64,000 nucleotides of DNA from Paenibacillus hemerocallicola (GTDB lineage Bacteria > Bacillota > Bacilli > Paenibacillales > NBRC-103111). Location: positions 64,059 through 128,058 of the forward strand of contig NZ_VDCQ01000003.1 of NCBI RefSeq assembly GCF_006265175.1, written 5' to 3'. Below the pieces are notes generated by a model that saw nothing but the letters and a program-made list of their open reading frames with translations, was not told the origin of the DNA and made no database searches. Of the stretch, positions 14,441-53,755 are shown in pieces; within the stretch, counting starts at the first letter, position 1; each line of letters opens with the position of its first letter. The translations under genes were made by a program, and so were the position numbers.

Positions 14441-15448
14441 ATGAAGAATCCTATGAAAGTAACGATAAAGGATATTGCAAAAATGGCCGGCGTGAGCCAT
14501 CCAACAGTTTCGAAGGCTCTTAACGATGTTCCAGGGGTTGCGGAGGAGACGCGCAATAAAATATTATCCATCGCCAAGCAGATGAATTATATGCCGAATA
14601 TGGCGGCTAAACGACTTTCGGACAAAAAGTCTAATTGTATCGGGCTTATCTGGCCGGTTGCAGAAAGTCTGTTTTTCTACAATCTTTGCATGCTGATCCA
14701 TGCAGAGGCGGGAAAGAGGGGGATAAATGTCATTACTTCCCTTGTCGCCCCGGTCGAAGCGATGCGTACGTTTAACCAACATTTCGTTGATCATATTATT
14801 TTTTGGTGTTACCCTCGCTGGGTACCGTCTATCGAGTTTTTGAAAGAAAAAGAACAATTCCATGGAGAACTTTTGCTTGTAGGCGGGGGCAAAATGGATG
14901 GAGCCCATTGTATATCGATCGACAGAATAACGGGTATATATAAAGCCGTTGATCATTTCGTTCGGCTGGGACATCGCCGTATTTCGTTTATAGGAGAATC
15001 TTCGGATAAATTAACGGGTTTTACTCAAGCTTTTGTCGAGCACGGACTCGAATATCATCCGGACTATGTCGTTCGCACCGATGATCGTAACTTGGATTTC
15101 GATCAGAAGATTCGCGATTTGCTGGTAAATAATAATAATAAGCCTACCGGGATCCTTGTCGATAGTCAGGCTGTTTTGTTCCGGCTGGTTCGATTATTGA
15201 GAATACTAAAAGTTAGCGTTCCCGATGATATTTCCGTTATTGTTTACGACGATATTCCGGAGATGGAGCGTTTTGAAATTCCATTCACGACAGTGGGACC
15301 TTCCATAGAGAAGTTGGCTAAAACATCGATCGAAAGTTTAACGAGAGGACCCGAGACGAATGGCAGTTGGATTAACGTAGAAATCAAATCAGAGCTTACG
15401 ATTCGTCATTCCACCAAGCCCGCAATCGACTCGACAACCAGCAAGTAA
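14441..15448 (+). CDS. LacI-family transcriptional regulator
   Basis: 335 residues from ATG 14441 (GGGGGAT upstream; an ATG at 14453 is also possible). The N-terminal helix-turn-helix is textbook: VTIKDIAKMAGVSHPTVSKA, then the hinge helix PNMAAKRLSDKKS. The rest is a periplasmic-binding-like sensor domain (HFVRLGHRRISFIGESSDK, DDISVIVYDDIPEMERF, FTTVGPSIEKL). It directly precedes an orphan sugar-binding lipoprotein whose promoter has a CACGTG-centred palindrome in the -35/-10 spacer, so it most likely represses that gene in response to an imported oligosaccharide. Confidence 0.92.
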   Translation: MKNPMKVTIKDIAKMAGVSHPTVSKALNDVPGVAEETRNKILSIAKQMNYMPNMAAKRLSDKKSNCIGLIWPVAESLFFYNLCMLIHAEAGKRGINVITSLVAPVEAMRTFNQHFVDHIIFWCYPRWVPSIEFLKEKEQFHGELLLVGGGKMDGAHCISIDRITGIYKAVDHFVRLGHRRISFIGESSDKLTGFTQAFVEHGLEYHPDYVVRTDDRNLDFDQKIRDLLVNNNNKPTGILVDSQAVLFRLVRLLRILKVSVPDDISVIVYDDIPEMERFEIPFTTVGPSIEKLAKTSIESLTRGPETNGSWINVEIKSELTIRHSTKPAIDSTTSK

Positions 15449-15510
15449 CAACTTCATCCGGCAGGGACCCAGTAGCGCGCTTCGCAAAAGCGCGTTATTT
15501 AAGTTGCGTA

Positions 15511-15633
15511 TTTACTTTATGGTACACGTGTAATATAATTTTCTTGTAAACGTTTTATAATATGTTTTTTGAAAAATGAACACGTGTAATATTTAAAAGT
15601 TGGACGTGAATGAAACGAATTGAAAGCGTTTAA
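15511..15633 (+). promoter_or_regulatory. Promoter of SBP1 with two LacI-type palindromes and two cre-like sites
   Basis: TTTACT (15511-15516), 17 bases, TATAAT (15534-15539). The palindrome TACACGTGTA (15523-15532) occupies the spacer. A second ACACGTGT lies at 15580-15587. TGTAAACGTTTTA (15545-15557), at the expected transcription start, is one base from the CcpA cre consensus, and TGAAAGCGTTTAA (15621-15633) is another cre-like site. Together they read as a LacI-repressed, catabolite-repressed sugar promoter. Binding by LacI and CcpA is inferred. Confidence 0.7.
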
Positions 15634-15664
15634 TATTTCCCGTGTTTTAGAAAAGGAGGAGCCT

Positions 15665-16960
15665 ATGACTTGGAAAAATAAAAAAACATGGTTGTCCGCC
15701 ATGTTAGCTGTATGGCTAACTGCTTGCAGCGGAGACAATACGGCAACCGAGAAGGATGACAAACCGGAGAATGTCCCGGAGAAACCCGTCACGTTGACTT
15801 TGTATAATGCGGGTACCTCAATTGGCTTAGAGGACATGATCGAGAAGTTGGTAAAGGAAAAGTTCCCCCATATTACAATAAATACGATTAAAAGGGGGGA
15901 AGGCATCAACATCCAAGTTTTGCTTTCGCAAGGTACAATCCCCGACTTGATTTCCAACCCGATTGGCGGCGTTTGGGGGTTGAAAGACGATCGCCTCTTG
16001 TCTGATTTGACTCCGCTCATCAAGAAACAAGGATTCGATCTGGGAAGACTGACTCCCGGCATTGTCGAAAATGTCAAAGCGCACGATGACAACGGGGAAT
16101 TCATTTTTATGCCGTTCGAATTGAATAATAACGCCTTGTTCTACAACAAAAATATTTTTGATAAATTCGGGGTTACTTACCCGACGGACAATATGACCTG
16201 GGAACAAGTATACGAGCTGGCGAAAAAAGTGACCCGAATGGAGAACGGCATACAATACAAAGGTTTTTTGTACGACGAGACGAGTTTGGTACACAAAAAT
16301 CAATTAGGTCAGACATACGTGGATCCGAAAACGCAGAAAGCTGTCGTGAACAACGATCAATGGAAAAAATGGCTCGAAGTCATGACCAGCTTTTATCAAA
16401 TCGAAGGAAATCAACTGGCTAAAGGAGAGACGGAAAAAGATCTGTTCTTGAAAAGTCAGACATTGGCAATGCGCACGGGTCCCAATTTCTTGACCGAACT
16501 GCCCGAGGCCGAAAAAAGAGGAATGGAATGGGACGTCGTTTCATTGCCGCATTTCACCGAAGGATCGGGGCAAGGCTCCCAGATGAATACACCGATTTAT
16601 GGCATTCCGTCGATAAGCAAGTATCGAGAAGAAGCATTTCAAGTCATTGCTTACTTGCTGTCGGACGAGGTCCAAAGCATTATGGCAAGACAAGGAAGAA
16701 TACCGGTACTGAAAAACGAACAGGTGCTAAAGGAGTTTGGCGCTGGACTGGAGGGACTAAAGGGGAAAAATTTAGCCGCTTTTTTCAAAGATACGATCGC
16801 CAAACCGATCTTGCTCTCGAGATATGACGGCATTTCCAAAGTCGCGATCGTAAACAAAGGAATCCGGGGAATCGGGATGGAGAAGAAAGATCTCAATACC
16901 GCCCTGAGGGAAGTTGAGGAAGAAATCAATAAGGGGATCGAAGCGGCTCTGAACAAATAA
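15665..16960 (+). CDS. Orphan extracellular solute-binding lipoprotein (SBP1)
   Basis: 431 residues. Start ATG 15665 follows AAAGGAGG. Lipoprotein signal ending in LTAC (C21), then a type-1 sugar-binding protein fold (LFYNKNIFDKFGVTYP, MTWEQVYELAKKV, RTGPNFLTELP). The C-terminus NTALREVEEEINKGIEAAL is shared with SBP2 and SBP3 of this window. No permease or ATPase is adjacent, so it must use a transporter encoded elsewhere or act as a sensor or scavenger. Followed after 145 bp by a Tat-exported beta-helix gene. Just after the stop, a perfect GGAGGTGAG leads a 7-codon ORF (ATG 16980), probably a relic. Confidence 0.9.
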   Translation: MTWKNKKTWLSAMLAVWLTACSGDNTATEKDDKPENVPEKPVTLTLYNAGTSIGLEDMIEKLVKEKFPHITINTIKRGEGINIQVLLSQGTIPDLISNPIGGVWGLKDDRLLSDLTPLIKKQGFDLGRLTPGIVENVKAHDDNGEFIFMPFELNNNALFYNKNIFDKFGVTYPTDNMTWEQVYELAKKVTRMENGIQYKGFLYDETSLVHKNQLGQTYVDPKTQKAVVNNDQWKKWLEVMTSFYQIEGNQLAKGETEKDLFLKSQTLAMRTGPNFLTELPEAEKRGMEWDVVSLPHFTEGSGQGSQMNTPIYGIPSISKYREEAFQVIAYLLSDEVQSIMARQGRIPVLKNEQVLKEFGAGLEGLKGKNLAAFFKDTIAKPILLSRYDGISKVAIVNKGIRGIGMEKKDLNTALREVEEEINKGIEAALNK

Positions 16961-17105
16961 GGAGGTGAGGCCCGCCCGCATGAGGCCGACTACACTTGCA
17001 TAAAGCTCCAAGCTTCTTTGTGAACTGCCTGCACTCAAGATTCACAATACGTTAGAAATGGAAGATGGACGGATATTAAAGTGTAAATTGGAGGCGAATT
17101 CGTGT

Positions 17106-19007
17106 ATGAATACGGACACTAACGAGAAGGACAGTAAGCTTATCAGCAGAAGAAACTTGATTATTTCGGCCGGCTTGGCGAGTGCGGCTTTGGCAGCGGA
17201 AGGTGTACTCGGAAACATCCGGGTAGCAAATTCATCCCCGGGGACAGTCGCTCAATCGGTATATGGGGACAGCGCTCTTAACGGAGTTTCAACAATCGTT
17301 CCTGTATCTATCGATGAGTTAAGGAACAATACTACGCCGGATAGCGATGCAAGGTACTACATAACGGATATAGAGAAGCATGGATTTTTCTATTATGACT
17401 CCAATGATACAACAACCCCGGACAATACGGGGACGGTTGTAGTTTCCACATCCGGAGCAAGATTCAAGAGGATCGTCGAGGGCATCTATAATGTCGTCTG
17501 GTTCGGCGCCAAAGAAGATGCCGCATTCGATAATAAGCCGCCTATTCAAGCGGCCATCGATGCTGCAGTCGCGGATGGAGGAGGTACTGTTTTCTTTCCT
17601 CCAAACCGTTTCCGTATTACGCAAAAAATTAACGTCTCTGGATCGCTTCAATTGGTCGGCGCACCCGGATCGATTATAGATTATGATTATAATACGGGTC
17701 ATTGTATCGAAGTTTCCGCCGACAATGTCTTGATTAAAGGTCTTTCTTTTGAAACGGAATACGCTTTCCAATGCGGACAGGTGACCATATTATCCAAAAA
17801 CGTCACCATAACGGAATGTCGATTTAACGGCCGCGGGTGGGCGGGAGTTCTCATGAAAGACACCGCCGGAAGCACGGTTATCGATCATAATTTTTTTAAA
17901 GACTATGCTTTTATGGTGTGCGGTCACGGTTCCCGAAATAATATCATAACGAACAATCATTTTACCGGAGGCTCTACGGAAGGAGTTCCGAACCAAAATG
18001 GTTGGGCTACTGAGCCGGTTGGGGATGGAGTGAAATTATCGTCCTCGACCGGAAGCTACGATCCGCAATATTTCGGTCCGCAAGATAATGTAATAGCCAA
18101 CAACATATTTGACAATTGTTACAGGGATGCAGTGGACATGTTTACGGACGGATCCTATACCATTGTCACCGGCAATGTGATTCGAAATCTCGTTACGACC
18201 GGACTTGATATAAAAACGATATACCGAGATTCTCCATACGAGGGCGGCACGAGTATCCCAAATGTACGTCAGATTAGTCGTATAGTAGTTTCCAACAACT
18301 TGTTTAAGAATATCGGGATTAAGCCGGACTCGAATTTTATTAACATCAACCATCAAGAATACCGTTCCGGCGTCACTCGCGATCCGGCTAACGGGCCAAA
18401 GTTAATTTCCATAATCGGCAATTATTTTGAAACATGCTCGGGAAATGGAATCGATATCATCGCAAGTATCGGGGTAATGATTCATAACAACATCCTTCGG
18501 GATGTTACGAAAAGGGGTATTTCCGTAACAGGAAATTGCTCCGACATTACCATTCAGGGAAATGACGTGGAGTCCAAGGAGCATGGAATTACTTCCACTA
18601 GCGCTGGGAATAAAAATGTTACGATACTCGACAACAGAATTACAGCGGGCATCGCCAATAGCAACTTTTCCGCCCTGCTTGTGGTAGGAGAACGAAACCA
18701 AGTTTCAGGCAATCATATTAAATCATTCGCAAATGGCGTATTTGTATCCGGAGCAACGAAAACGCTTGTTCAAGGGAACCATATCAACAATTGTTCATCC
18801 ACCGGTATCAGGTTTGAGAGTACGGTAGCTACCTCTTCGATTATGAACAATCAAATGTCCGACTGTCCTACAGCGATCCGGTTTGACAGCACTTGCAGCA
18901 AAATATCCGCCTTTAATAACGTGGGGATCGATAGCCCGAACGGTTTTGTAAATACGAACCTAGTTACCGGTTATACAGAAGCAAACAATGTACTGGTAAC
19001 AAGCTAA
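17106..19007 (+). CDS. Tat-exported right-handed beta-helix protein (pectate-lyase-like)
   Basis: 633 residues from ATG 17106 (GGAGG upstream). A Tat signal is present: S14-R15-R16-N-L-I-I followed by an Ala-rich hydrophobic stretch. From ~residue 145 (NVVWFGAKEDAAFDNKPPIQ) it matches the Pectate_lyase_3 entry region, followed by many parallel beta-helix rungs rich in N-x-x-x-G-N and IxxNxF repeats to the C-terminus. No catalytic residues can be assigned with confidence, so it may be a lyase, a hydrolase or a carbohydrate-binding surface protein. It shares the VYG segment after the signal with the Tat beta-helix protein at 51464. A terminator follows. Probably co-expressed with SBP1. Confidence 0.85.
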   Translation: MNTDTNEKDSKLISRRNLIISAGLASAALAAEGVLGNIRVANSSPGTVAQSVYGDSALNGVSTIVPVSIDELRNNTTPDSDARYYITDIEKHGFFYYDSNDTTTPDNTGTVVVSTSGARFKRIVEGIYNVVWFGAKEDAAFDNKPPIQAAIDAAVADGGGTVFFPPNRFRITQKINVSGSLQLVGAPGSIIDYDYNTGHCIEVSADNVLIKGLSFETEYAFQCGQVTILSKNVTITECRFNGRGWAGVLMKDTAGSTVIDHNFFKDYAFMVCGHGSRNNIITNNHFTGGSTEGVPNQNGWATEPVGDGVKLSSSTGSYDPQYFGPQDNVIANNIFDNCYRDAVDMFTDGSYTIVTGNVIRNLVTTGLDIKTIYRDSPYEGGTSIPNVRQISRIVVSNNLFKNIGIKPDSNFININHQEYRSGVTRDPANGPKLISIIGNYFETCSGNGIDIIASIGVMIHNNILRDVTKRGISVTGNCSDITIQGNDVESKEHGITSTSAGNKNVTILDNRITAGIANSNFSALLVVGERNQVSGNHIKSFANGVFVSGATKTLVQGNHINNCSSTGIRFESTVATSSIMNNQMSDCPTAIRFDSTCSKISAFNNVGIDSPNGFVNTNLVTGYTEANNVLVTS

Positions 19008-19455: not shown

Positions 19456-21210
19456 TTACATGGTAATCCAAGCCGTGCCGATACTGAGAAAGCTTCGGAA
19501 TTCACCTGCATCAGTCAAAACGACCGTGCAGCCGCCGTCGATCGTCTCCGAACCGCTTGCGGTGATTTGTACCGGGTTCGTTCCGGAATCCGCCTTCTTG
19601 ATCGTGAATTTCATTCCGTTTACCGTGGATGCCGGAGGCATACTCACGATGACAGGCTGCGCCGAGGCATCCACGATTAGATGGTTGTCTCTCCCATCGA
19701 GTGTCGTATCAGCGTTCGCGTTCCGGTATGGCAGCTTTAAATTCGGCACTGCGGCTGCCGGCGGAAGCGTCAACAAGACGTCTTCTATCGCTCCCAGGTT
19801 CGCAATCGTCCCGCCCAATCGATTCAAGCCGACCGCGCCGGTGGATATTTGGGGATAACTGGCAGATGCGGTCTGTTCCACCCGCACGTTGCGCGTGTGT
19901 GGATCGAACTCGAACGGACTTACCGTGTGGCCGACCGATTCACAATCACGGTACACAAGATCCGTGATCGTAAAGCCTTCTAGAGCGTACGTAGCAAATC
20001 CTCTGCGGATAAACGACGGAGTTCGGTCGTCGATGGAGCGGCAATTATAGAAATGTGAGTTGCCTGCGCTCGACCTGGCTTCCGAAGCGACCGTGCTGAT
20101 GAAGAAAGAGGCGGCGTACGATAAAGCGGCTTCGGTCCCATTGTTCGTATTGCAGTTATACGCCGTGCATCGGATATAGGTCGTGCGGACGCTGTCGGCC
20201 GAGCTGGACAATTCGAAAAACCCGGACCATTTCTCATATTCGGCGAGGCAGTCGATATATTTTACTTCTCCTTGTGCGGCATCGGTGCCGTCTTTGCCGT
20301 AAACGGTCGCAAATCCGAAAGCATTGTTTCGGGAAACGCAGTTTTGGAAGATAATATCGATACGTTCGCTGGCGGTGCTTAATTTCTTTATCATCGACAC
20401 GAATCCGCGTCCTTTGTTGCCTTCCGATACGCAGTTTATGAGCCTGATTTTTTTCAACCGATCGGTAGGTCCGTTTGGTTCGATATCCACTCCGGCCTGT
20501 GGATTCGTTCCGATCGTATTCGTGAATGTGCAGTTTTCGACGAGCAATCCGTCGACGGATATGACGGACAAGCCTTGTCTCCGGTTATTATCCGCCCGGC
20601 AATCCCGCAACACGATGTTGCGGCAATAGCTGTTCGTCGCCTGGTAGTTGCCGATATAAAACCCGTCGCCGCCCGAGTCGTTCGCGTTCACTTGTTCGAT
20701 CGTAACGTTATCCGACCCGCCGATATCGAATATATGAGCCTGCTCTCCCGCCGGGTAAGCCGATTTGTTCATCCGAAACACGGCGCCATTGCCGACAATG
20801 CGCACATTGCTCACATTAAGGATGCGAATCAGCCGCTCATAGGGGGCCGTCACCCGAAGCGTATCAACCGCTTGGATAACGGTACCCGGGGCTAATTCGA
20901 GAACGATATTGCCGGGAATATACAACTGGCCGGTCAAGTAATGGGCGCCTTCCTGCTTGGGAACATACAGCTTTTTCCCTGACGCTGCATTCAGCGCCGC
21001 CTGAAACGCCGCCGTATCGTCAGTCACTCCGTCTCCTTTCACGCCGAACCAGCTTGCCGAAAGCACCGTAACCGGGGAATTGGTCGCGTTCGCTTCTTCC
21101 CATCCATGTCGGTCCAGTATTCCCTCTGAAGCGACGGCGACACCCGCCACTCCGACTTTTGTCATCGGCGCTCCTCGGCTTGCTTGCTTATCAGTCATGT
21201 TATCGGTCAT
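19456..21210 (-). CDS. Right-handed beta-helix protein with degenerate Tat-like N-terminus
   Basis: 584 residues; AGGGGG precedes the ATG at 21210. It opens MTDNMTDKQASRGAP, followed by a hydrophobic Val/Ala stretch. This matches the Tat leaders of the sister genes except that the twin arginine is R12-G13, so export may be lost. Residues ~50-110 (WFGVKGDGVTDDTAAFQAAL) are the classic Pectate_lyase_3 entry. Successive beta-helix rungs (NVSNVRIVGNGAVF, NIVLRDCRADNNRRQG, VENCTFTNT) run to ~460, and a small C-terminal beta domain follows. Reads as a glycan-active or glycan-binding protein. Upstream on the same strand, 18 bp away, is the decayed end of a solute-binding protein, reproducing the SBP/beta-helix gene order. 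Confidence 0.82.
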   Translation of the reverse strand: MTDNMTDKQASRGAPMTKVGVAGVAVASEGILDRHGWEEANATNSPVTVLSASWFGVKGDGVTDDTAAFQAALNAASGKKLYVPKQEGAHYLTGQLYIPGNIVLELAPGTVIQAVDTLRVTAPYERLIRILNVSNVRIVGNGAVFRMNKSAYPAGEQAHIFDIGGSDNVTIEQVNANDSGGDGFYIGNYQATNSYCRNIVLRDCRADNNRRQGLSVISVDGLLVENCTFTNTIGTNPQAGVDIEPNGPTDRLKKIRLINCVSEGNKGRGFVSMIKKLSTASERIDIIFQNCVSRNNAFGFATVYGKDGTDAAQGEVKYIDCLAEYEKWSGFFELSSSADSVRTTYIRCTAYNCNTNNGTEAALSYAASFFISTVASEARSSAGNSHFYNCRSIDDRTPSFIRRGFATYALEGFTITDLVYRDCESVGHTVSPFEFDPHTRNVRVEQTASASYPQISTGAVGLNRLGGTIANLGAIEDVLLTLPPAAAVPNLKLPYRNANADTTLDGRDNHLIVDASAQPVIVSMPPASTVNGMKFTIKKADSGTNPVQITASGSETIDGGCTVVLTDAGEFRSFLSIGTAWITM

Positions 21211-21228: not shown

Positions 21229-21438
21229 TCATTTTCCCGCCTTGGCCGCTTCGATCTGATCTGATTGATATCTTCAGCCGTTTCCCGCAGCACCGTATTG
21301 ACGTCTTTGCGTTCTATGCCATGCCCCGGATTCCTTTTTTGACGAGCGACACTTTGGCCAATGATTCGTAAATCGTGGTAGGCGACCAGTTTGGCGACAG
21401 TATCTTGGTTTCACATTTTTCGGGAACCGTATCGGTTC
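21229..21438 (-). pseudogene. Relic of an orphan solute-binding protein (C-terminus only)
   Basis: Reading the minus strand gives KVSLVKKGIRGMA, then (after a frameshift) ERKDVNTVLRETAEDINQ. With removal of a duplicated ATCAG this would end IEAAKAGK-stop at 21229. These match the SBP1 C-terminus (KVAIVNKGIRGIG, then EKKDLNTALREVEEEINK) almost residue by residue. Upstream an in-frame TAA breaks the frame and no further homology is seen. A perfect 7-bp hairpin (GGAACCG/CGGTTCC, 21423-21439) marks its 5' end. Confidence 0.8.
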
Positions 21439-23666: not shown

Positions 23667-23779
23667 ATGAAAACATCCCGATCAAAAGACGGCAATGTTA
23701 GCTTATGATGTATATGGAAACGGACCTGCGCAACCCCGAGGTATTGCTGCCCATACTCTCGGGCTTTCTGAAACAGTAG
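23667..23779 (+). pseudogene. Remnant of an alpha/beta-hydrolase gene
   Basis: A good ribosome binding site (AAGGAAGG) and ATG at 23667 start MKTSRSKDGNV. After a frameshift AYDVYGNGPA continues, together the usual N-terminus of a family of small alpha/beta hydrolases. The sequence then jumps to NPEVLLPILSGFLKQ-stop, which resembles the C-terminus of such enzymes. The catalytic centre is missing. Confidence 0.45.
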
Positions 23780-23823
23780 TCTCTTGATCTTCGTAACGCT
23801 CGAAAAATAAAGGAGGAAGTAAT

Positions 23824-24327: not shown

Positions 24328-24428
24328 GCTTGCATTAAGCTGATACTACACCCTGGTGTTACGGGCTACCGCAACGGGTATGCGCTTAATCCGTTTTCAT
24401 AGCAATCAAAAGGGGAGGGAACCAATTG

Positions 24429-24560: not shown

Positions 24561-24602
24561 CACGAGATTACACGACAAGCCTGATGGTTATCCGTCAAAT
24601 AT

Positions 24603-24806: not shown

Positions 24807-24927
24807 GCAGATCTTTGTGTTGAAGGGGATTGCGCCGCAAACGTCAGAAGAGGCAGTGACAATGAATATTATTATAGTTATTTATAATGGATTAAGGTAA
24901 GTTAGTGGTAAAGGGGGATATTACAAG

Positions 24928-40740: not shown

Positions 40741-40762
40741 AGGCCCTATAGGGAGAAGCAGA

Positions 40763-43989: not shown

Positions 43990-45483
43990 TTGAAAGCGAT
44001 CTTGGTTTTGTTCGATTCCCTTAACCGTCATATGCTTGAGCCTTATGGCTGCGACTGGGTGCATACCCCGAATTTCAAACGGCTGTCCGAGCGCACGGTC
44101 AGATTCACCCGGAGCTATGTCGGCAGTATGCCATGCATGCCTGCCCGCAGAGATTTGCACACGGGCAGACTGAACTTTCTGCACAACAGTTGGGGCCCTT
44201 TGGAACCGTTTGACCGTTCGGTGCCTGAACTGCTGAGCCGGGCGGGGACGTATACCCATCTTGTCAGCGATCATTACCATTACTGGGAGGCGGGCGGAGC
44301 TACCTATCACACGAAATACGACTCTTGGGAATTCAGCCGGGGACAGGAAGGCGATCCTTGGAAGGGGGAGGTGAAGGATCCGGTTCTGACCGGGCACTCG
44401 GACCGGTTTAACGGTCATGCGCTGCGACGGCTTCGACAAGACCGGATCAACCGAACCTACATGCAGAAGGAAGAAGACCACTCGCAATCGCGAACATTTC
44501 GAGACGGGATCGAATTTATCGATACGAACCATTCGGAGGACAATTGGTTTTTGCAAATCGAGGCTTTCGACCCGCATGAGCCGTTTTTCGCGCCGGAGTC
44601 ATACAAAAAACTGTATTCCCATGTTTACGAAGGACCCGATTTCGACTGGGTGCGACCGGGACCCGTAACGGAAACGCCGGATCAGGTGAACCATTTGCGG
44701 CATGAATATGCGGCTTTGGTCAGTATGTGCGACGCCCAATTGGGCCGGGTAATGGATCGAATGGACCAGTACGGCATGTGGGAGGACACGATGCTGATTG
44801 TCGCCACGGATCACGGGTACTTGCTCAGCGAGCACGATTATTGGGGCAAGAACGTGATGCCGCTATACGCCGAATTGTCCAACACTCCCCTGTTTATTTG
44901 GGATCCGCGTACCCGACAGGCAGGCCGCACCTGCGACGCTCTCGTGCAATGGATCGATCTGGCGCCGACCTTGCTGGGCTATTTCGGCGTTTCCGTACCG
45001 TCCACCATGCTCGGGCACGACCTGGTTCCGGTCTACGGTTCGGATGAAACAAAGAGGGATGCGATTTTGTTCGGTTACCACGGCGCTCACGTCAACTGCA
45101 CGGACGGGCGTTATGTATATATGCGGGCTCCCGTTCGCGCGGATAATACACCGCTGTACGATTACACCTTGATGCCGTCCCATATGAATGCCATGTATAC
45201 GGTCGAGGAGCTGCGGCACATCGAATTGGCGGAACCGTTTTCCTTTACCCAAGGCTGCCGAACGATGAAGATCGCGGCAAGCAATGCCATACAGAGCCAT
45301 ACGATGGGTACGCTGCTGTTCGATCTGCAGACGGACCCCGGACAGCTGTATCCGTTGTCGGACGAGCGGATCGAGCAGCATATGCGGCAGTTGATGATCA
45401 GGCTCATGCAACAGAACGATGCGCCGCCGGAGCAATACGAGCGTTTGGGATTGGTTCCGGATTCCATCGTCCGAACAAATTGA
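43990..45483 (+). CDS. Sulfatase (type I, formylglycine-dependent)
   Basis: 497 residues; TTG start at 43990, 37 bp after GH38, with GGAGAG upstream. The formylglycine motif is C49-x-P51-x-R53 (PCMPARR), followed by G-x-x-x-G-type sequence in HTGRLN. Metal and sulfate ligands are suggested by D9 (LVLFDSLN) and VATDHGYLLSEHDYWGK. No signal peptide, so it acts on sulfated sugars after import. This is unusual, because most Firmicute polysaccharide sulfatases are also cytoplasmic only when oligosaccharides are taken up intact. Needs a formylglycine-generating or anaerobic maturation enzyme from elsewhere. Confidence 0.9.
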   Translation: MKAILVLFDSLNRHMLEPYGCDWVHTPNFKRLSERTVRFTRSYVGSMPCMPARRDLHTGRLNFLHNSWGPLEPFDRSVPELLSRAGTYTHLVSDHYHYWEAGGATYHTKYDSWEFSRGQEGDPWKGEVKDPVLTGHSDRFNGHALRRLRQDRINRTYMQKEEDHSQSRTFRDGIEFIDTNHSEDNWFLQIEAFDPHEPFFAPESYKKLYSHVYEGPDFDWVRPGPVTETPDQVNHLRHEYAALVSMCDAQLGRVMDRMDQYGMWEDTMLIVATDHGYLLSEHDYWGKNVMPLYAELSNTPLFIWDPRTRQAGRTCDALVQWIDLAPTLLGYFGVSVPSTMLGHDLVPVYGSDETKRDAILFGYHGAHVNCTDGRYVYMRAPVRADNTPLYDYTLMPSHMNAMYTVEELRHIELAEPFSFTQGCRTMKIAASNAIQSHTMGTLLFDLQTDPGQLYPLSDERIEQHMRQLMIRLMQQNDAPPEQYERLGLVPDSIVRTN

Positions 45484-45500
45484 ACATGGAGGCGAAGTCG

Positions 45501-47243
45501 ATGTTAACCCAAAAGGATTTGGTCCGGGACCTGGAAAATAGATGGGATACCTTAAAAGCTTTCGTGATCGGCGACCCGGAGAGCCATTGGTACGGGACAT
45601 TAGACCCCGCGACCGGCAAGCAGCAAGACATCATCAATCTTGCCGCCTGCCTTTACTGTCATTCCGAATCAAGATGGTACAAAAAACCGGCCATGCTCGA
45701 AGTATTGGAAAAAGCGATAAACTATTTGCTGCGCAGCCAACTTCCGAGCGGGTGTATCTCTTTGGAGAACTGCAATATCGACTCGCCGCCCGATACGGCC
45801 TTTACCGTGCATGTCGTATCGCTCGTATACAAATTGGTGCGGCATGTGAAATTTCAGGAGCTAGTTCCTGCAGAGCGTCAGATCGAACTGTTTTTGCGTC
45901 GGTCGATCGATGGTTTGCTGCATGGAGGATTCCATACCCCCAATCACAGGTGGGTCTTATGCGGAGCGCTCGCTTTGCTATACGAACTATTTGATGACAA
46001 ACGCTTGAAGGACAGAGCCTTTCAGTTTTTGAACGAGGGCTTCGACATTACCCCGGACGGCGAATGGACCGAACGAAGCAATGGGACTTACAATCCGATT
46101 TGCGATTTGTTGCTGTACCATGCAGGAACCGCATTCGGGCATGAACAAGCATTTGCGGCGATTCGCAGCAATCTGAATATGATGCGTTATTTGCTGCACC
46201 CGGACAATAGCGTGGCGACCGAATATTCGAGCAGGGGCGATCGGGATCAGGTCGTCTATTTGAATGGCATGTACAACGCTATATACAGATTGATGGCCAA
46301 TCGCGACAAGAACGAGACCTTCCATCGTATGGCGGCTATTGCAAGCGAAACGGTTTCATCGGTTGATCCGATTTTGCTGCTGTACTGGATGCTATACCCC
46401 GCCGACATGGAATTGAACGAATCCGTAGGTCCGTTAGCGGACAAATATACCGTATTATTGCATGACAACCATTCCGTTGACGTTCCGATGTCCATTAACA
46501 ATACTGGCCGGCAGGAACCCGATTTGCATGGCGCTTCCATTCTTCGGCATCGAAGAGGCAAGCTGAGCGTAACCTTGATGGCCGGACAACAACATTTTAT
46601 GTATATCCAGTACGGCAAGACGAGAATGGTTGCCGCCAAATTGGCGCTGGGTTGGTTTGGAATCGGAAGCGTTTCGTTTCCTGCCATTCGACGAACGGGC
46701 GAGAACGAATACGAGCTGCATGTCGAGCCGATTGGATCTTACGGGGGGATACTTACCGAAGAACAGCTGCTCGCTAACGCCGGAAATCTCTCGCATGTAC
46801 CGTATCAGCTTCGGGAGAAAACCAATGTATTGGTGTTGCCGATCCGCATGAAGATCACGATAGCGGAGTCGGCGATCCGATTGGAGGTGTCGACAGACGC
46901 CATTCCTCATTTATTCGCCCAGATGTTGTTTGCGTTCGATTCCAAGGGAGAGATAGAAGGGAGCGGACTGCGTCAGGCGACTCCGCAATTCTATCATCTG
47001 ACCGAAGGGGAAGCGACTTACAGGTGCGGACCGGATCGTCTGGTTGTTTCGCCGGGCATGAACGAGCATCGATTCGAGACGATGCGCAACGACAAGCAGA
47101 TAGAGGGAGCGATTGCATTAGGCATCAATTGCGTAACGCCTTTAAACAAGACATTTCAGATTTCTTGGGGCGAGGACGGTACGGAAGAGATCCTGCTCAC
47201 GGAAGGCGCGAATATGCCGAACAACGAGGGGGTTGGAATATAA
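45501..47243 (+). CDS. Putative cytoplasmic polysaccharide lyase/hydrolase (alpha/alpha barrel plus beta-sandwich)
   Basis: 580 residues from ATG 45501 (GGAGGCG 6-7 bases upstream; ATG 45486 also possible). Residues ~1-300 are helical with repeated aromatic/His motifs (LAACLYCH, GGFHTPNHRWVLCGALALLYELF, EWTERSNGTYNPICDLLLYHAG) like an (alpha/alpha)-toroid. The rest is beta-rich (HGASILRHRRGKLSVTLMAGQ, TRMVAAKLALGWFG). This two-domain layout is that of PL8/PL12/PL21-type lyases. H-N-R in TPNHRW and the Asn/Tyr in NGTYNP are candidate active-site residues. No named family was recognised. It overlaps or abuts the sulfatase and lies 3 bp from the next gene, so it is in the same operon. Confidence 0.6.
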   Translation: MLTQKDLVRDLENRWDTLKAFVIGDPESHWYGTLDPATGKQQDIINLAACLYCHSESRWYKKPAMLEVLEKAINYLLRSQLPSGCISLENCNIDSPPDTAFTVHVVSLVYKLVRHVKFQELVPAERQIELFLRRSIDGLLHGGFHTPNHRWVLCGALALLYELFDDKRLKDRAFQFLNEGFDITPDGEWTERSNGTYNPICDLLLYHAGTAFGHEQAFAAIRSNLNMMRYLLHPDNSVATEYSSRGDRDQVVYLNGMYNAIYRLMANRDKNETFHRMAAIASETVSSVDPILLLYWMLYPADMELNESVGPLADKYTVLLHDNHSVDVPMSINNTGRQEPDLHGASILRHRRGKLSVTLMAGQQHFMYIQYGKTRMVAAKLALGWFGIGSVSFPAIRRTGENEYELHVEPIGSYGGILTEEQLLANAGNLSHVPYQLREKTNVLVLPIRMKITIAESAIRLEVSTDAIPHLFAQMLFAFDSKGEIEGSGLRQATPQFYHLTEGEATYRCGPDRLVVSPGMNEHRFETMRNDKQIEGAIALGINCVTPLNKTFQISWGEDGTEEILLTEGANMPNNEGVGI

Positions 47244-47245
47244 CC

Positions 47246-50200
47246 ATGAAGTTCGAACAGAAGAAGAGCATACGATTTGAAAATGATTATACGTTCCATA
47301 TAAAGGACAGTTTGAAACATAAGCTCTTTTGGTGGCCGGAGACTTTATTGACCTACCCTCTGGACTTTGGCGAAGATCAGGTTTTAGCGGACGATCTTGC
47401 CCTATATGACTCGCGAACAAACGAGCAGGTTCCTTTTCAGCTCTCTAATCTTAAGGAGGATAGCTCGGGCAGACTGTTGTCCTCCGACCTAAGCTTTTTA
47501 ACAGACCTGGGCTCGGGGGAAGAACGGAGTTTCGTGCTAAAAAAAACTGCTCCGAACAAATTTGAAAACCCTATAAACATAGTAAAAACCGAAAACGGCT
47601 TATGGATCGATAACGGTATCTTCTCGGCGCGGATTCCTCTCTCGCAAATTTATCCTGTACAAATTCCCGGACCTATTATGCAAATCAGCGCTAACGGAAT
47701 GAAATACGGCAATTCTCAAATAGAAACAGGAAAATTGCGGATTTTGGAAATCGTTACGGAATGTCGCGAGCATGGACCTATTTTCGCTGAATATACAGTC
47801 AAGTATGTGTTTGACGGCGGAAAAACTTACGAGGCTATTCTGAAGTTTGTTAAAAATATGGAGTTTATCGAATTTACTGAAACTATCGAAAATATTTCGG
47901 TAAACGATGACGCCTCATTCAAAATATATTGGTCGGGGCTCGCTCCGACACATAGGCATGCTCCCAATAATCCTCCCGTAATGGAGGGCGATTGCGAAAC
48001 CAAGTATGAAGACTTTAATTGGTGCAAAATAGATGAAGAAAACGTAGGCGGATATAATCATCCTGTCGGCATGTGGTCGAATAGGGCGGATGGTCAAATT
48101 CCGTTCAGACTTTCTTTATATGAGCCTCAAGCGGCCGTTGTTAAAGTGAATTCCGCCGCATTCTGGAATGAAACGTCCGGACAATCGATCGGAGCTTTTA
48201 TAGTAGACGAATCCAAATGGGATAACAGGAGGTACGATTTATTTTGTTCCTGGGACGGCTTTGCCGTAACTTTCTTCTATAAAAACGGCTTGATGTGGTG
48301 GAATTATCCAATCATCAGCGGAACCAGAACAACGGCAATAGCCGTATACGAGCATAGGAAGGACAAACAATATTTTGATCGGGTAAGACCCGAGCGGGAG
48401 CCGGAAACAAAATACTTGGCCGGCGGCACGAGGGCAAGCCTTCACAGCTCAAGCTACTGCATGTTTTTGCAGAACAGGTACAGTCTTCTCTCCTTAAACA
48501 CGATCAAAGACTACGTTCTCGACTATCCGGAAGTCTCAAAACGTTGCATTGTCATTTTCGATGAATGCCCTTATAAAGACTATGAGAGTTTTGAAGATTT
48601 TTTAATGAATTATATACTTATAAGCAAGCTTCCGACCCATGGACAAAGAGAAAATGCAGGTTTCCATTCTGTCCCGTATAGAAGAATGACAGGTTTTGCC
48701 GCGGCTTATAACCGATTCAAAGATCAAATGCCATACGAAAATAGAAAACGAATAGAAGCTATGCTGCTGCTATTGACATACTTGGCGGCAAGCGAGCATG
48801 TCGTACCGCTAATTCATATGCTCGGGGGGCCGCCCAACTTGCAGGGAGATGTGCGGAGAACGTTAGGATATATCGCGACGCTCTTCCCGGAGCACCCGGA
48901 AGCAGGGAAGTGGAAGGAAATTTTCGCTAAGTTCGTTGAAACCTCGCTCAGACTGTATACCAGGCCGGATTTGAAAGGACTCCGATTGGAGGGTGGCAGA
49001 TGGGCTGAAAATATAGGCACCTACACGTGGGCATTTTTAATCCCGGCACTTAAAACGGCCATGTTGGTGGAAGAGCATGGCGAATTTAGGAATGTTTTTG
49101 CCAGCAAGCATTCCGCACTGCTTGGCAAGTGGCTGGTTCATTGCATGACGGCCCCTTTTCAAGGAGAAAATGAAAAATCCGTCAAGCTTACGAGCGAAGA
49201 CGGACATCATTGGGGGTGCTTTGCCGAGGGAATGGGGCCTCATCGGGTCTATTTGCCGATAGGAGCGCACGCTGCAAGAAGAACTACTCCCTCCTCCATG
49301 AGAGATTTTGCAAAACATCTCGAACGATACGATCCAATCCTCGCAGAACATATACATTATGTCTGTTCCGACTTGCCAGATGATTTTGAATCCAGGAAAA
49401 AAGAACAGTCGAAGGGAATCGCCGATCAGGATCGACTGAAGAAAGGTACTCGTCCGGATTTTAAAACTACCGCTTTCACCGGGTTCGGCATCATGTTGCG
49501 AAATGGCGTCTATACGCCTGAGGAAGTATCCGTATTTTTGCAGCAAATAGATGAAGGTCCGAACTACAGATGGGGTACTGCCGGAGCCGGCGGCAATGGG
49601 AACATTTACTACTATGCCGACGGAAAAGCATATAGTCACAACGGCAAGGAGGACGCAGGAGATAGAAAAATTAATGACTGCGAAGTAGGCTGCAATTTTG
49701 GAGTTTGGAAAAACAATAAGTATACGTCAATCGGACAAAATGTGATTATGAATGCGTATCATGCTCTTGGAACTTTCCAGTATACGTCCATTGAATCGGA
49801 AAAGGACGACAAATCATATTCCTATCCCGAATATTTGGAAAGAAATGTACTGCTTTCCGGAACGGATTATATTTCCATTTACGATAAAGCGGGTACTCCC
49901 GCCATAAGAAACAGATTCGTCTGGAGCGTATCCAGCTTCGATCAAATGCCCTCTATTCATATGATTTCCGATTTCGAATACACGAGCAAGCTTACTACGG
50001 GAAATAAGACGGGCAGTATCGACTCCGTCTGGTATGAAGGGAAAGGAAACGGTTTTGCAATCGTTAGCCATAGGGACGATTTGCGAGTAGAAAAACGCAG
50101 CTATGGCGCTATCGTCGCTTCGCCAGAATTCAAGGATACGCTTTTTCGAAGCAATAGGAAACTCAAGGGCGAATTCGACGGCGTCCAATTCGAAGGAACC

Positions 50201-51184
50201 GCAGGGGCGATAAGAGAATACCGCACTGGAGATTACGAGATTGCGCTTATTCACGGATACAGTCTCAACGCCAAGGGCATAACTCTTCGATCGGAAAATG
50301 GCAAAACGGGGATAAGCCTTAGTCGGACGCAAGCCGGAGAATGGAAAGGGTATATTTCCAGTCTGCATGAAGATCGAATAGCCGTAACATGCGAGGGAAA
50401 TAAGGACGCACGCCTGTATATGGACTCGATTCCGTGTAAGCCGGATGGAGATGGAATGTACGAAATATCAAGCGGAGAGTACACGTTGGAACTGTTGCAT
50501 AGCAGCGATATGCCGATTCCTGCGAAACCTGTCATTACGAATATTGTTCAAGGAAACGGGATTTGCGAAGTCGATTTTCATGCCGTGGCCGGAGCGGACT
50601 GCTATCAGATTCAAATAAGCCAGGATTTCGGCGAGACATGGAATACCGTAATCGAAACAAAGGAAGTCCGATGCCTCGTTGAAGGATTGGTTAATGACGT
50701 TAAATATTTCGTTAGAGTTTGTGGCAAGAATGATAGCAAGAGCGGTCCGTATTCCCATGAGTATCCCGTCTATCCGTCAAATGAAAAGCCATTATCGCCG
50801 GAAGGACTGGATGTCATCATTAAGGGTGACGACCTGTATTTCTCATGGGGCAAGGTACTAGGTGCCGGAAGCTATCGGTTATATAAAAAGGACAGTAATG
50901 GCGGTACCCAAACCGTATATTCGGGAGATGAATCCGGCTTTGCTTGCAAAAGAGCTTGCGACGGAGCGATAAGCAGCTATGCCGTGTCGGCTGTAAATCT
51001 TTGCGGAGAAGGGGAACCGAGTCCCTTTGAGATTAATGACGACCCGGCTTCTTTAAGAAATTACAAGCCGCTAATCGATAGTTACTTTAATAGAAACTCA
51101 TTGTACGGACATCACCCTTTTAAACTGCAGAACACGCATAAATATAGGGAAGTCCCCTCCTCTTATCCGGAGAGCACCATTTAA
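47246..51184 (+). CDS. Large heparinase-like glycan-active protein with two C-terminal FN3 domains
   Basis: 1312 residues from ATG 47246, two bases after the previous stop (GAGGGGGT upstream). No signal peptide. An N-terminal beta-sandwich (~1-430; EFTETIENISV, WSGLAPTHRH) is followed by an alpha/alpha-toroid (~480-770; RLEGGRWAENIGTYTW, EDGHHWGCFAEGMGPHRVYLPIG), a beta-rich section (~820-1085; GPNYRWGTAGAGGNGNIYYYADGKAYSHNG), and two fibronectin-III repeats (~1092-1175 and ~1182-1270). The order resembles very large polysaccharide lyases. The gene is visibly more AT-rich than its neighbours, pointing to separate acquisition. Ends the LacI2 operon. Function inferred, not recognised. Confidence 0.6.
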   Translation: MKFEQKKSIRFENDYTFHIKDSLKHKLFWWPETLLTYPLDFGEDQVLADDLALYDSRTNEQVPFQLSNLKEDSSGRLLSSDLSFLTDLGSGEERSFVLKKTAPNKFENPINIVKTENGLWIDNGIFSARIPLSQIYPVQIPGPIMQISANGMKYGNSQIETGKLRILEIVTECREHGPIFAEYTVKYVFDGGKTYEAILKFVKNMEFIEFTETIENISVNDDASFKIYWSGLAPTHRHAPNNPPVMEGDCETKYEDFNWCKIDEENVGGYNHPVGMWSNRADGQIPFRLSLYEPQAAVVKVNSAAFWNETSGQSIGAFIVDESKWDNRRYDLFCSWDGFAVTFFYKNGLMWWNYPIISGTRTTAIAVYEHRKDKQYFDRVRPEREPETKYLAGGTRASLHSSSYCMFLQNRYSLLSLNTIKDYVLDYPEVSKRCIVIFDECPYKDYESFEDFLMNYILISKLPTHGQRENAGFHSVPYRRMTGFAAAYNRFKDQMPYENRKRIEAMLLLLTYLAASEHVVPLIHMLGGPPNLQGDVRRTLGYIATLFPEHPEAGKWKEIFAKFVETSLRLYTRPDLKGLRLEGGRWAENIGTYTWAFLIPALKTAMLVEEHGEFRNVFASKHSALLGKWLVHCMTAPFQGENEKSVKLTSEDGHHWGCFAEGMGPHRVYLPIGAHAARRTTPSSMRDFAKHLERYDPILAEHIHYVCSDLPDDFESRKKEQSKGIADQDRLKKGTRPDFKTTAFTGFGIMLRNGVYTPEEVSVFLQQIDEGPNYRWGTAGAGGNGNIYYYADGKAYSHNGKEDAGDRKINDCEVGCNFGVWKNNKYTSIGQNVIMNAYHALGTFQYTSIESEKDDKSYSYPEYLERNVLLSGTDYISIYDKAGTPAIRNRFVWSVSSFDQMPSIHMISDFEYTSKLTTGNKTGSIDSVWYEGKGNGFAIVSHRDDLRVEKRSYGAIVASPEFKDTLFRSNRKLKGEFDGVQFEGTAGAIREYRTGDYEIALIHGYSLNAKGITLRSENGKTGISLSRTQAGEWKGYISSLHEDRIAVTCEGNKDARLYMDSIPCKPDGDGMYEISSGEYTLELLHSSDMPIPAKPVITNIVQGNGICEVDFHAVAGADCYQIQISQDFGETWNTVIETKEVRCLVEGLVNDVKYFVRVCGKNDSKSGPYSHEYPVYPSNEKPLSPEGLDVIIKGDDLYFSWGKVLGAGSYRLYKKDSNGGTQTVYSGDESGFACKRACDGAISSYAVSAVNLCGEGEPSPFEINDDPASLRNYKPLIDSYFNRNSLYGHHPFKLQNTHKYREVPSSYPESTI

Positions 51185-51272
51185 TGAGTACCATAAAATT
51201 CCGACGTCAAAATCGATCATAGTAAGTCTAGTACGTCAGATTAATTTGAAAAGATGAATGAAAGGATGGCCG

Positions 51273-51306
51273 GCGGGCTCCGATTGCGGAGTCCGCTTTC
51301 TGTTTT
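51273..51306 (+). terminator. Rho-independent terminator of the mannosidase/sulfatase operon
   Basis: GCGGGCTCCG (51273-51282), ATTG loop, CGGAGTCCGC (51287-51296), then TTTCTGTTTT. Confidence 0.88.
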
Positions 51307-51463
51307 GCGCGATTCGGTATATCTTTCGGAAGTGGCCTGGCATCATGAAGCAATTTTATAGCCAAATAGTGAATCTCGCTATCAGATCTATATAGGCATC
51401 CAAAAGAAATACGTCCTATAATCAATTCAAATATAGAAATCGCTTTCAAGGGAGGAATGAAAA

Positions 51464-53755
51464 GTGAACAACCAATCGGACGGCAATCCGGACCGAACCG
51501 AACAGGAGCAGTATACGGAGAAACCATCATCCACGGAAAAGGAGGGGGCTGCAAAGCTCAGCCGGCGCAAGCTGCTTGCTTCTCTCGGAATTACTGGAGC
51601 TGCCGTAGCATCTGGAGGTTTAATCCACACTTTGAACGGAAGCGCTTCCGTCCTCAATTCCGTTTACGGAAATCCCGATACTGTCGGAGCGGACGAAGTC
51701 TCTTATCAGTACGCGGCCAACTTGACGGAACGCACGGTAGGCGCAAAATTACGGGAGTCTATGTCCGTTCTTGACTTTGGGGCAGCAGGCGACGGCATTG
51801 CCAATGATGCTCCGGCGATTCAAAGCGCGATTGATCATGCGGCCGGGAATGGAGGGGGCGTTATCTTTTTTCCAAAAGGTTCGTATCGCTTGGCAGTCCA
51901 GGTGAAGCTCCCTTCCAACATTACGCTTCAAGCCGAACCCGGAACGGTAAAAATAATCATGAACGGAACGACACTGAAAGTCCCGTTCATCACGGCGGTT
52001 CATTGCAAGACGGATCATTTCTTGTTTGCGACGAATATCCATCTGTACGGTCTCGATTTTATCAATGAGGCCAATCTGGTCGCAGGAATTCATTATGTGA
52101 CCTACTGTGCCTGGTACAGCATCAACGTCAGAAACGTATCGATGAGGAGATGTACGTCTCACAACATGGGGCTGCAATATATGACCCATGCTGTCAGGCA
52201 ATGGGGAACTTACAATCAGGCCCTTGCGAGCAACACCGACCCGAATATCGATCCGGCCGTGTCGGCGGGTTTATCTGCGACCGGCGGAGACTTGAACAAG
52301 GACTTTCTGTTTGCGGACAATCGGACTTATACACAGGATGGAGCGCTCGTGCAAATGTTCCGCTACGAGTTTTGCGAGAAAGGGCTTATCCATGCAAACG
52401 ACTCCGTTCGGGGATCGATCAGCGGCTGGGGCGGCGCCGCCGGGAAGGTGGAGGGTGGCAATCTGCAGCACTATCGCCGGTGCCGCCACGTGAATCGTAC
52501 CCAGAATCGGCTGTATGAGCCGAATGCGCTCTACATTATCAATGGTTACATGTGCAACGATACCGGGAATTACGTCGAGCGGGGCATCGATCTGGGCATT
52601 GACTACGAAGGCTGCTTTTACTGTACGGCGGAGCATAATACCGTGAAAAACTCGGGTAACGGCTCGCTGGCCATCTTCTACGCATCCGTCGGCAATAAAT
52701 TTATCGGAAATACTTGCATAGAGGACGGATCGGCACAGAACATCAACGATCTGTTTCAACTGGGAACGAAATGGGACCCGAGCAGCGGCAATTATTTGTT
52801 CGTCAACAAAGGGTCGGGATTTACGAATATCGCGGGTACGGATGAATGCGTGTTCATCGGCAACGAATTTATTTGGTTGGGGGAAACCGGAGCGGGCATT
52901 GTCGATATCGGCGATTTTTCACACTACGCGTTGCGCGACAATAAGTTTACGAATGTCGTCATCGATATGAATTTTAACAATTCGGGAAACAGTCTGCTGT
53001 CCCATAATGAATTCCATATTACCCGGGATGTAAGGAAGAGCATTATCGACATAGGAGACTTGTCGGGTGCCGTTGCTCAATGGACCACCATCGAATATAA
53101 CGATTTTTATATCAAAGCGCAGCAATCGAGTGGAACGAGTGCGATCAACTTATTTAACGACGCGGGTCAGCCCGTGAAAACATACGTGATTGGCAATCGA
53201 ATCTATGATTTCAACAATTATATCGAATCCGACATCTCCTATGAAGGAGCGTCTGCGTCGGCGGCAGGCATACATATATTCGTAATCCGGGACAATTTGC
53301 TGAAAAATGTGCGTCATAAAAGCGCGAAGCTGGCCCGAGTTCTTTTGCAGCTATCGAATAATTACACCCTGCAAGGCAAGCCGTTCCCGGCCGGAGACGG
53401 CGCTCCGGTACTGACACAATTGGGCGACGGCGTTCAGATTGTGGCGGGAACCAAGTTTCCGTACGCGAATTTGGAAGGGAAGACGAAGGAAGGACTCATT
53501 GCGATAAACGACGGATTTTTGTTGGCCGATGTCCATGGGCGGCAGGCATCCGCCTCGTACCAGCCAGGGGATGTGGCGTGGGCTGCCGTGGGAGCGATAG
53601 ATAAAGTGTATTTTTGCATCACGGGCGGCACGTCGAGCACCGGCAGCTTTCCCGGCAATGAAGGAAACGCCATACCGGATGGCTCGGTCGTATGGCGATA
53701 TCTCGGACGCAGGCAAGTGTTATCCGAATACGGGATGATCGGAAATGAACAGTGA
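51464..53755 (+). CDS. Tat-exported right-handed beta-helix protein
   Basis: 763 residues; GTG start at 51464 with GGGAGG upstream. A long hydrophilic N-terminus leads to a clear Tat motif, S33-R34-R35-K-L-L, and an Ala/Gly hydrophobic stretch. The entry segment LDFGAAGDGIANDAPAIQSAI (~100-120) is Pectate_lyase_3. About 20 beta-helix rungs follow (NVSMRRCTSHNMG, ENTVKNSG-type turns) to ~620, then a small C-terminal domain with a conserved W/G pattern (DVAWAAVGAIDKVYFC, DGSVVWRYLG). Shares SVYG after the signal with the 17106 protein. Probable surface glycan-cleaving or -binding protein serving the adjacent operon. Catalytic residues unassigned. Confidence 0.85.
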   Translation: MNNQSDGNPDRTEQEQYTEKPSSTEKEGAAKLSRRKLLASLGITGAAVASGGLIHTLNGSASVLNSVYGNPDTVGADEVSYQYAANLTERTVGAKLRESMSVLDFGAAGDGIANDAPAIQSAIDHAAGNGGGVIFFPKGSYRLAVQVKLPSNITLQAEPGTVKIIMNGTTLKVPFITAVHCKTDHFLFATNIHLYGLDFINEANLVAGIHYVTYCAWYSINVRNVSMRRCTSHNMGLQYMTHAVRQWGTYNQALASNTDPNIDPAVSAGLSATGGDLNKDFLFADNRTYTQDGALVQMFRYEFCEKGLIHANDSVRGSISGWGGAAGKVEGGNLQHYRRCRHVNRTQNRLYEPNALYIINGYMCNDTGNYVERGIDLGIDYEGCFYCTAEHNTVKNSGNGSLAIFYASVGNKFIGNTCIEDGSAQNINDLFQLGTKWDPSSGNYLFVNKGSGFTNIAGTDECVFIGNEFIWLGETGAGIVDIGDFSHYALRDNKFTNVVIDMNFNNSGNSLLSHNEFHITRDVRKSIIDIGDLSGAVAQWTTIEYNDFYIKAQQSSGTSAINLFNDAGQPVKTYVIGNRIYDFNNYIESDISYEGASASAAGIHIFVIRDNLLKNVRHKSAKLARVLLQLSNNYTLQGKPFPAGDGAPVLTQLGDGVQIVAGTKFPYANLEGKTKEGLIAINDGFLLADVHGRQASASYQPGDVAWAAVGAIDKVYFCITGGTSSTGSFPGNEGNAIPDGSVVWRYLGRRQVLSEYGMIGNEQ

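Follow-up and report, generated by a model that had tools for sequence, protein, structure and literature searches.

Three genes in a 64,000-nucleotide stretch of Paenibacillus hemerocallicola DNA (contig NZ_VDCQ01000003.1, positions 64,059 to 128,058; the whole stretch is called the window here) encode substrate-binding protein (SBP) lipoproteins with no permease genes of their own, which we denote SBP1, SBP2 and SBP3. These three proteins are part of one discrete family of SBP_bac_1 lipoproteins. The family is a lineage-specific expansion of orphan SBPs, with hundreds of paralogues and few candidate membrane partners. A family member is a predicted lipid-anchored SBP of the CUT1 type, often encoded together with a regulator (AraC, LacI or GntR-SBP) and one or a few catabolic genes in a compact locus that has no permeases. 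The sampled Paenibacillaceae genomes that bear the family also carry an ATP-binding cassette (ABC) permease pair of one type (permA2/permB2), which in the loci read lies behind genes for a DUF5696 protein and an NHL-TPR-Yip1 protein. We propose, with confidence a little above even, that SBP1–3 are lineage-expanded plug-in sugar receptors feeding a shared DUF5696-linked importer, a docking that we infer from gene content and linkage.

A large and discrete family of orphan SBPs

SBP1 (15620–16960, ATG probably at 15665), SBP2 (31912–33375, ATG probably at 32068) and SBP3 (38175–39539, ATG probably at 38241) lie on the plus strand, as do all genes of the window described below unless the minus strand is given. 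All three are intact, as a previous sequence-only reading of this DNA had claimed, and match Pfam SBP_bac_1 with 60.7, 68.4 and 79.4 bits, respectively, against a cut-off of 26. They carry lipoboxes (LTAC in SBP1, LSAC in SBP2 and, as read from its sequence, IAGC in SBP3) and are 30–34% identical to one another. An ordinary permease-linked SBP of the same window (26215–27510; SBP_bac_1, 160 bits), which is not a family member, served as a comparison. It is 24–28% identical to SBP1–3, over shorter stretches, and reached only 94 bits with a first hidden Markov model (HMM) of the family, which scored SBP1, SBP2 and SBP3 at 438, 340 and 594 bits. For SBP1–3, Pfam scans (E up to 0.01) returned only SBP_bac families, with no TctC or SusD domain. 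An AlphaFold2 model of SBP3, with a predicted local distance difference test (pLDDT) score of 90, has the usual sugar-binding-protein fold, and its top Foldseek hits were 5f7v and 4rk2, with template-modelling (TM) scores of 0.72 and 0.71.

The family is far larger than the window suggests. Searching the organism's own genome (9.65 Mb in 167 contigs) with SBP3 gave at least 150 matches, the weakest listed at E 6.7e-56, and SBP2 as query added 50 places, bringing the number of distinct family places to at least 200. Another 82 PF01547 matches in this genome lie outside both lists. The separation is sharp: with an HMM built from 138 members, members scored 390–556 bits, two intermediates scored 253 and 274, and all others scored 160 or less. 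The fetched stretches of this genome contain 163 long open family frames above 300 bits, and a strict lipobox pattern was found in 127 of 142 family frames; some family copies contain stops. Paralogues are well diverged, the median identity between nearest paralogues being 50%, with only 13 of 163 reaching 70% or more, yet 13 columns are invariant among 40 aligned members.

The expansion is shared by related genomes (genomes, contigs and loci are given below by our G, C and L labels). An alignment-based search (alignment A1, E up to 1e-60) found at least 150 copies in each of G001, G002, G003, G093 and G104, and 94 in G122, 75 in G124, 37 in G103, 17 in G025 and 8 in G004. Named records that contain relatives include those of Paenibacillus ginsengarvi, P. 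mesophilus, P. oceani, P. solanacearum, P. allorhizosphaerae and P. flagellatus. The closest relative of SBP3 that was found belongs to another genus (L291, on contig C143 of G019; 62% identity). It has a LacI gene and a sulfatase gene beside it, in a gene order unlike that of the window, and no beta-helix gene was found among the three neighbours scanned.

Family members lack adjacent permeases

A canonical ABC importer operon has two permease genes adjoining the SBP gene, and this arrangement was not found for the family in the organism's own genome. We located permeases in the organism's own genome with two permease queries, which gave about 70 permA-like and about 70 permB-like loci. None of the 200 family places was within 2 kb of a permease and only 5 were within 5 kb. 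The fetched stretches, searched with HMMs in all six frames, gave the same picture: of 163 family frames, none had a permease closer than 2 kb and 4 had one within 5 kb, and for 144 of them the sequence reached 2 kb or more on each side. The same HMMs recovered 49 permease frames in 19 permease loci. Family SBPs are depleted near permeases: 3 of 187 places had one within 3 kb, fewer than in any of 500 random placements (mean 11.8, lowest 4); this statistic and those for beta-helix genes below use the 187 of 200 places on contigs of known length. In contrast, 32 of the 82 PF01547 matches outside the two lists were within 2 kb of a permease, the other 50 not.

The same scarcity holds elsewhere. 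Of 115 distinct family frames in other Paenibacillus-type genomes, only 1 had a permease within 2 kb (99 of the 115 have at least 2 kb on each side), and in 20 stretches mostly from other genera the count was 3 of 22. The sequence-only reading had named permeases usually adjoining the homologues as an observation that would speak against it; with 1 of 115 frames in other Paenibacillus-type genomes, this was not what we saw.

Within the window the SBPs likewise have no permeases of their own, as had been claimed, although a complete SBP-permease-permease operon had been overlooked there. It consists of the comparison SBP at 26215, permease A (27529–28482; BPD_transp_1) and permease B (28516–29349; BPD_transp_1), and it stops 2.6 kb short of SBP2. 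SBP2 might borrow these two permeases, but the pair belongs with the 26215 SBP and we found no link between it and the wider family. We also considered a wide set of SBP-less permease pairs as possible partners. The figure of 43 permA places with no listed SBP within 3 kb proved overstated: among 19 such loci that were read (covering about half of the 43 places), 17 hold a non-family SBP-like gene.

A DUF5696-linked permease pair is the best candidate partner

The best candidate for a shared transporter is the ABC permease pair whose genes come after that for a DUF5696 protein. Some permease loci hold two pairs, in the order SBP fusion of about 1000 aa (1007 aa in L294), permA1, permB1, NHL-TPR-Yip1 protein, DUF5696 protein, permA2, permB2. 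Two pairs accompanied by a large NHL-TPR-Yip1 protein and a DUF5696 protein occur on contigs C68 (L297), C13, C18 and C77. The organism's own genome has five DUF5696 matches, on contigs C13, C18, C68, C77 and C134, and there are two to five DUF5696 loci in each of G000–G003, all of which have at least 150 family SBPs. We found no mention of DUF5696 in the open-access literature searched.

What follows permB2 differs between loci. In the form on C68 (L297) a response regulator and a histidine kinase come after permB2 and there is no SBP gene; this gene order recurs in L373 (G001), L377 (G003) and L379 (G025), where it was judged from the start of the sequences, the domains of the regulator and kinase having been tested in L297. 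Locus L378 has no detected SBP either, and the gene after its permB2 differs from that of the C68 form. In other cases a family SBP stands directly 3' of permB2, at 6 bp in L380 (G025) and 98 bp in L206 (G040), and two tandem family SBPs lie 376 bp behind permB2 in L376 (G003). The C13 locus has a fusion of GntR with an SBP 3.5 kb behind permB2, followed by a family SBP at 5.1 kb. The dispersed copies of the family are not in operons with permA2 and permB2. The EAA-loop pattern was detected in 6 of 7 permA2 and 6 of 7 permB2 proteins; it misses both ordinary permeases of the window, so that its misses mean little. A gene for a MalK/MsmX-like ATPase lies just upstream of the C18 locus.

The family and this permease pair occur together. 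In a survey of 104 Paenibacillaceae genomes (16 or 21 best candidates scored per genome; E up to 1e-60 for the family and up to 1e-75 for permB2), the family was found in 51 genomes and permB2 in 56, including all 51 with the family and 5 of the 53 without it. With an identity threshold of 58%, set after viewing the list, permB2 was present in 49 of the 51 family genomes (48 clean matches, one broken and partial) and in none of the other 53. Genus g21 contains ten genomes with both and at least eight with neither, of similar genome size. A comparison of 59 relatives gave a parallel result for DUF5696 itself. Of the 23 genomes in which the family was matched at E up to 1e-20, 22 had DUF5696 above the Pfam cut-off, as did 8 of the 36 others, the eight including a 28-bit fragment in G006 (Fisher p 1.5e-8; the co-occurrence p-values ignore phylogeny). 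The single exception lacking DUF5696, G052, had a family hit of 167 bits that is not a true member.

Linkage points in the same direction. In 17 genomes from outside the genus, the best family SBP was within 20 kb of DUF5696 in 10 (seven genera), whereas the best ordinary permease-linked SBP was so placed in none of the same 17; the chance expectation was 0.38 across 16 of them. The 20 kb limit was set after viewing the data, and G052 was excluded as not a true member, while G032 was included although its hit reached only 203 bits.

The numbers of the two partners are very unequal. With the 21 best candidates scored at E up to 1e-75, a single permB2 match accompanied at least 150 SBPs in G093, G104 and G001, and 37 in G103. 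Across the six genomes with at least 150 family copies (the organism's own, G001, G002, G003, G093 and G104) there were one to three permB2 matches. Such one-to-many counts are most simply read as many locus-specific receptors delivering to a single shared importer or to a handful of them. The borrowing of a common transporter, which had been raised as one option for these SBPs, thus acquires a concrete candidate, with docking to it remaining conjectural.

Regulators and catabolic genes recur beside the family

The recurring arrangement around family members is a regulator, an orphan SBP and a catabolic gene, in which a beta-helix lyase is the commonest partner and yet a minority one. We scanned 101 of the 135 listed upstream neighbours, omitting short ones and some long ones, and found 35 AraC, 7 GntR and 4 LacI proteins immediately upstream of the SBPs. 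Among co-directional downstream partners, 68 of the 76 listed were scanned (short ones, those above 1400 aa and family SBPs were omitted). There the commonest class was that of beta-helix proteins, with 8 matches to Beta_helix and 7 to Pect-lyase_RHGA, some of which may coincide, and the remaining partners were spread over many families (68 matched). Recurring ones among the first 25 families were GFO/IDH/MocA proteins, flavin adenine dinucleotide (FAD) oxidoreductases, xylose-isomerase-like proteins, BNR proteins and 2-hydroxyacid dehydrogenases.

Beta-helix genes are nevertheless enriched near the family. One is present within 3 kb of 29 of 187 SBPs; 500 random placements averaged 13.0 and never exceeded 27. 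Conversely, a family SBP lies no more than 3 kb from 28 of the 57 beta-helix genes. Because these partners are enriched but a minority, the arrangement is best described as regulator, orphan SBP and catabolic gene rather than as a fixed unit. An SBP with a beta-helix gene had been put forward as the repeated defining unit; with such genes in at most 15 of 68 downstream partners, the partners being varied, this amounts only to a preference and we rejected it as a definition.

We also rejected the idea that the SBPs feed membrane-bound regulators, since membrane segments are predicted for few of the regulators beside them. Of the 160 proteins in the merged regulator cluster, 100 combine a length of 200–399 aa with the absence of any membrane segment predicted by a crude hydropathy measure. 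A separate kind of regulator near the family is the GntR-SBP fusion, a regulator built from a sugar-binding protein, which we also observed in L036, L051, L129, L156 and others. The fetched stretches of the organism's own genome contain 14 distinct full-length copies, that of the window included, and five such fusions sit 20–270 bp upstream of a family SBP.

Genes surrounding SBP1–3 in the window

As had been claimed, LacI-family genes stand beside two of the SBPs. The one upstream of SBP1 (14390–15448; Pfam LacI and Peripla_BP_3) precedes an SBP that is directly followed by a beta-helix protein (17058–19007; Beta_helix, NosD), in which a twin-arginine-like RR motif was seen by eye. A second beta-helix or pectate-lyase-like protein (19456–21210, minus strand; Beta_helix, Pect-lyase_RHGA_epim) is encoded downstream of an SBP relic. 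The relic, which had been placed near 21229, is real, and it retains only the C-terminal 49 or so residues of a family SBP (21261–21407, minus strand; tblastn, 47% over 49 aa). It was detected at E 1.8e-7 in a search confined to 1.25 kb and did not appear when the whole window was searched at E 1e-6. The paralogue that it matches best, on contig C77, also has a beta-helix gene after it; the relic and the 19456 gene therefore look like a decayed version of the arrangement of SBP1 and the 17058 gene. The interval 23700–26100, beside a DUF3626 gene, holds short frames that by eye resemble gene fragments.

The GntR-SBP fusion of the window, which had been missed, consists of a GntR helix-turn-helix fused to an SBP domain (30176–31648; GntR, SBP_bac_1/8), an SBP-type regulator located 267 bp upstream of SBP2. 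SBP2 is followed by a D-2-hydroxyacid dehydrogenase (33406–34401; 2-Hacid_dh_C) and a chondroitinase-B-like lyase (34540–36501; Chondroitinas_B, 1.3e-76). SBP3 is adjoined by the second LacI-family regulator (39620–40675; LacI, Peripla_BP_3), with a GH38 alpha-mannosidase (40720–43953; Glyco_hydro_38N/C) and a sulfatase (43990–45483; Sulfatase, 1e-35) beyond it. Further on is a pectate-lyase-like protein (51464–53755; Pect-lyase_RHGA_epim). A beta-helix or lyase gene had been reported near each SBP. The four genes concerned are indeed of these types, but the one at 51464 lies 12 kb and five genes away from SBP3. Between the sulfatase and this gene are two large proteins whose longest frames overlap (45480–47243 and 47024–51184), neither of which matched a Pfam family above the cut-off.

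Discussion

We suggest that different SBPs of the family may be induced by different glycan fragments, which in some loci would be freed by the neighbouring beta-helix lyase. The SBPs would then hand these fragments to a shared importer present in few copies. The importer would probably be powered by an MsmX-like ATPase, MsmX being an ATPase common to several transporters, and specificity would be gained by duplicating the receptor rather than the transporter. A more specific form of this model, which we advance tentatively as the less probable side of the question, is that the SBP-less DUF5696-type importer is the dock for the whole orphan array, with the DUF5696 and NHL-Yip1 proteins as adaptors that accept interchangeable lipoproteins.

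Several observations weigh against a shared DUF5696-linked importer. The C77 form of the locus (L295, L372 and L374) has two SBPs of its own, both from outside the family. The permease pair of L301 (contig C155) and the second pair of L308 (contig C135) are outside DUF5696 loci and likewise have no SBP detected in the sequence read around them, which leaves the DUF5696 pair with rivals as an SBP-less candidate, and the organism's genome has about 70 other permease pairs. Five genomes carry permB2 with no family member, at 47–52% identity only. Linkage in other genera is mostly loose, at 4–17 kb, and in 7 of the 17 genomes there is none within 20 kb. Only about 18 loci were read beyond permB2, and absences in the multi-genome searches are uncertain, as the best 16–29 candidates were scored per genome. 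Genomes of the same genus are not independent, and a shared niche for complex glycans could explain the co-occurrence.

Other explanations of the orphan SBPs were weighed against the same data. It is rather unlikely, in our view, that they dock promiscuously on many ordinary CUT1 pairs or on other SBP-less pairs such as that of L301, with SBP2 perhaps using the 27529–29349 operon. The abundance of permA-like and permB-like loci, the pair that finishes so close to SBP2 and the SBP-less pairs of L301 and L308 fit such docking; but 17 of the 19 sampled permease loci hold a non-family SBP-like gene, DUF5696 linkage was 0 of 17 for ordinary permease-linked SBPs against 10 of 17 for the family, and promiscuity does not predict tight co-occurrence with one permease type. 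A smaller probability goes to a role as sensor or surface tether, in which the lipoproteins would capture glycan fragments as signals, or keep substrate close to lyases at the surface, and take no part in transport. Regulators are frequent among the neighbours of the SBPs, the C68 importer locus includes a response regulator and a kinase, and precedents are indicated by two papers, one citing a sensory role of the SBP system BctDECBA (PMC5994714) and one on SBP-activated sensor kinases (PMC11113362). The preponderance of regulators with no predicted membrane segment argues the other way, as do the three genomes in which family SBPs stand directly behind ABC permeases.

We regard a conserved capture-and-cleave module of SBP and beta-helix protein as very improbable as a general rule, although it may hold for a subset. 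The enrichment of beta-helix genes near the family and the relic's closest paralogue, which likewise precedes a beta-helix gene, favour it, whereas the low share of beta-helix types among downstream partners does not. That most copies are decaying, non-functional duplicates is scarcely credible. Stops do occur in some copies and the window holds one relic, but the 163 long open frames, the lipoboxes retained in 127 of 142 and the divergence of nearest paralogues around 13 invariant columns are hard to reconcile with general decay. The shared DUF5696-linked importer thus remains the explanation we favour.

The closest parallel comes from Proteobacteria, where orphan SBPs of the TctC/Bug type have expanded, with 434 SBPs in Rhodoplanes (PMC5994714). 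Both cases have tens to hundreds of paralogous SBPs per genome with very few matching membrane components; in both, many SBPs lie beside transcription factors and one membrane component is proposed as common. TctC/Bug proteins are, however, periplasmic SBPs of tripartite tricarboxylate transporters, whereas the family described here is predicted to be lipid-anchored, ABC CUT1-type and found in Gram-positive Paenibacillaceae, with a candidate partner transporter that is co-inherited, unlike in TctC/Bug. In SBP_bac_1 domain, lipobox and fold the family resembles SBPs of CUT1 ABC importers such as Lmo0181 (5f7v) and RHE_PF00321 (4rk2), but it differs from them in having no permease genes alongside and in its identity of only 14–18% to 50 solved structures among the matches listed.

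A lactulose SBP of Bifidobacterium has been suggested to use membrane parts encoded elsewhere, as stated in passages of PMC8110962. As in the present family, an SBP lacks a full transporter set of its own and sharing is proposed, but single genes rather than a large array are concerned, and no genome-wide partner is named in those passages. MsmX is likewise a shared part, an ATPase. The SusC/SusD arrays of Bacteroides are glycan-capture proteins with local regulators and enzymes. The large arrays of the present family resemble them in these respects, but SusC/SusD differ in fold and membrane, and the transporter SusC has multiplied too (106 susC and 57 susD according to PMC5994714). We found no description of such an expansion in Paenibacillus, or of an ABC-type Gram-positive case, in the open-access literature searched.

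ABC importers are normally drawn with one binding protein per transporter. This lineage seems to have split the receptor from the transporter and to have multiplied the receptor alone. Should the DUF5696 importer prove to be the common dock, a single knockout would probe what hundreds of genes do and DUF5696 would gain a role, while ligand discovery could begin from the enzyme beside each SBP. The orphan-receptor strategy of Proteobacteria would then have had a separate origin here, with another class of transporter in another type of cell envelope, and one importer served by hundreds of receptors would represent a new modular class of ABC uptake system in Gram-positive bacteria.

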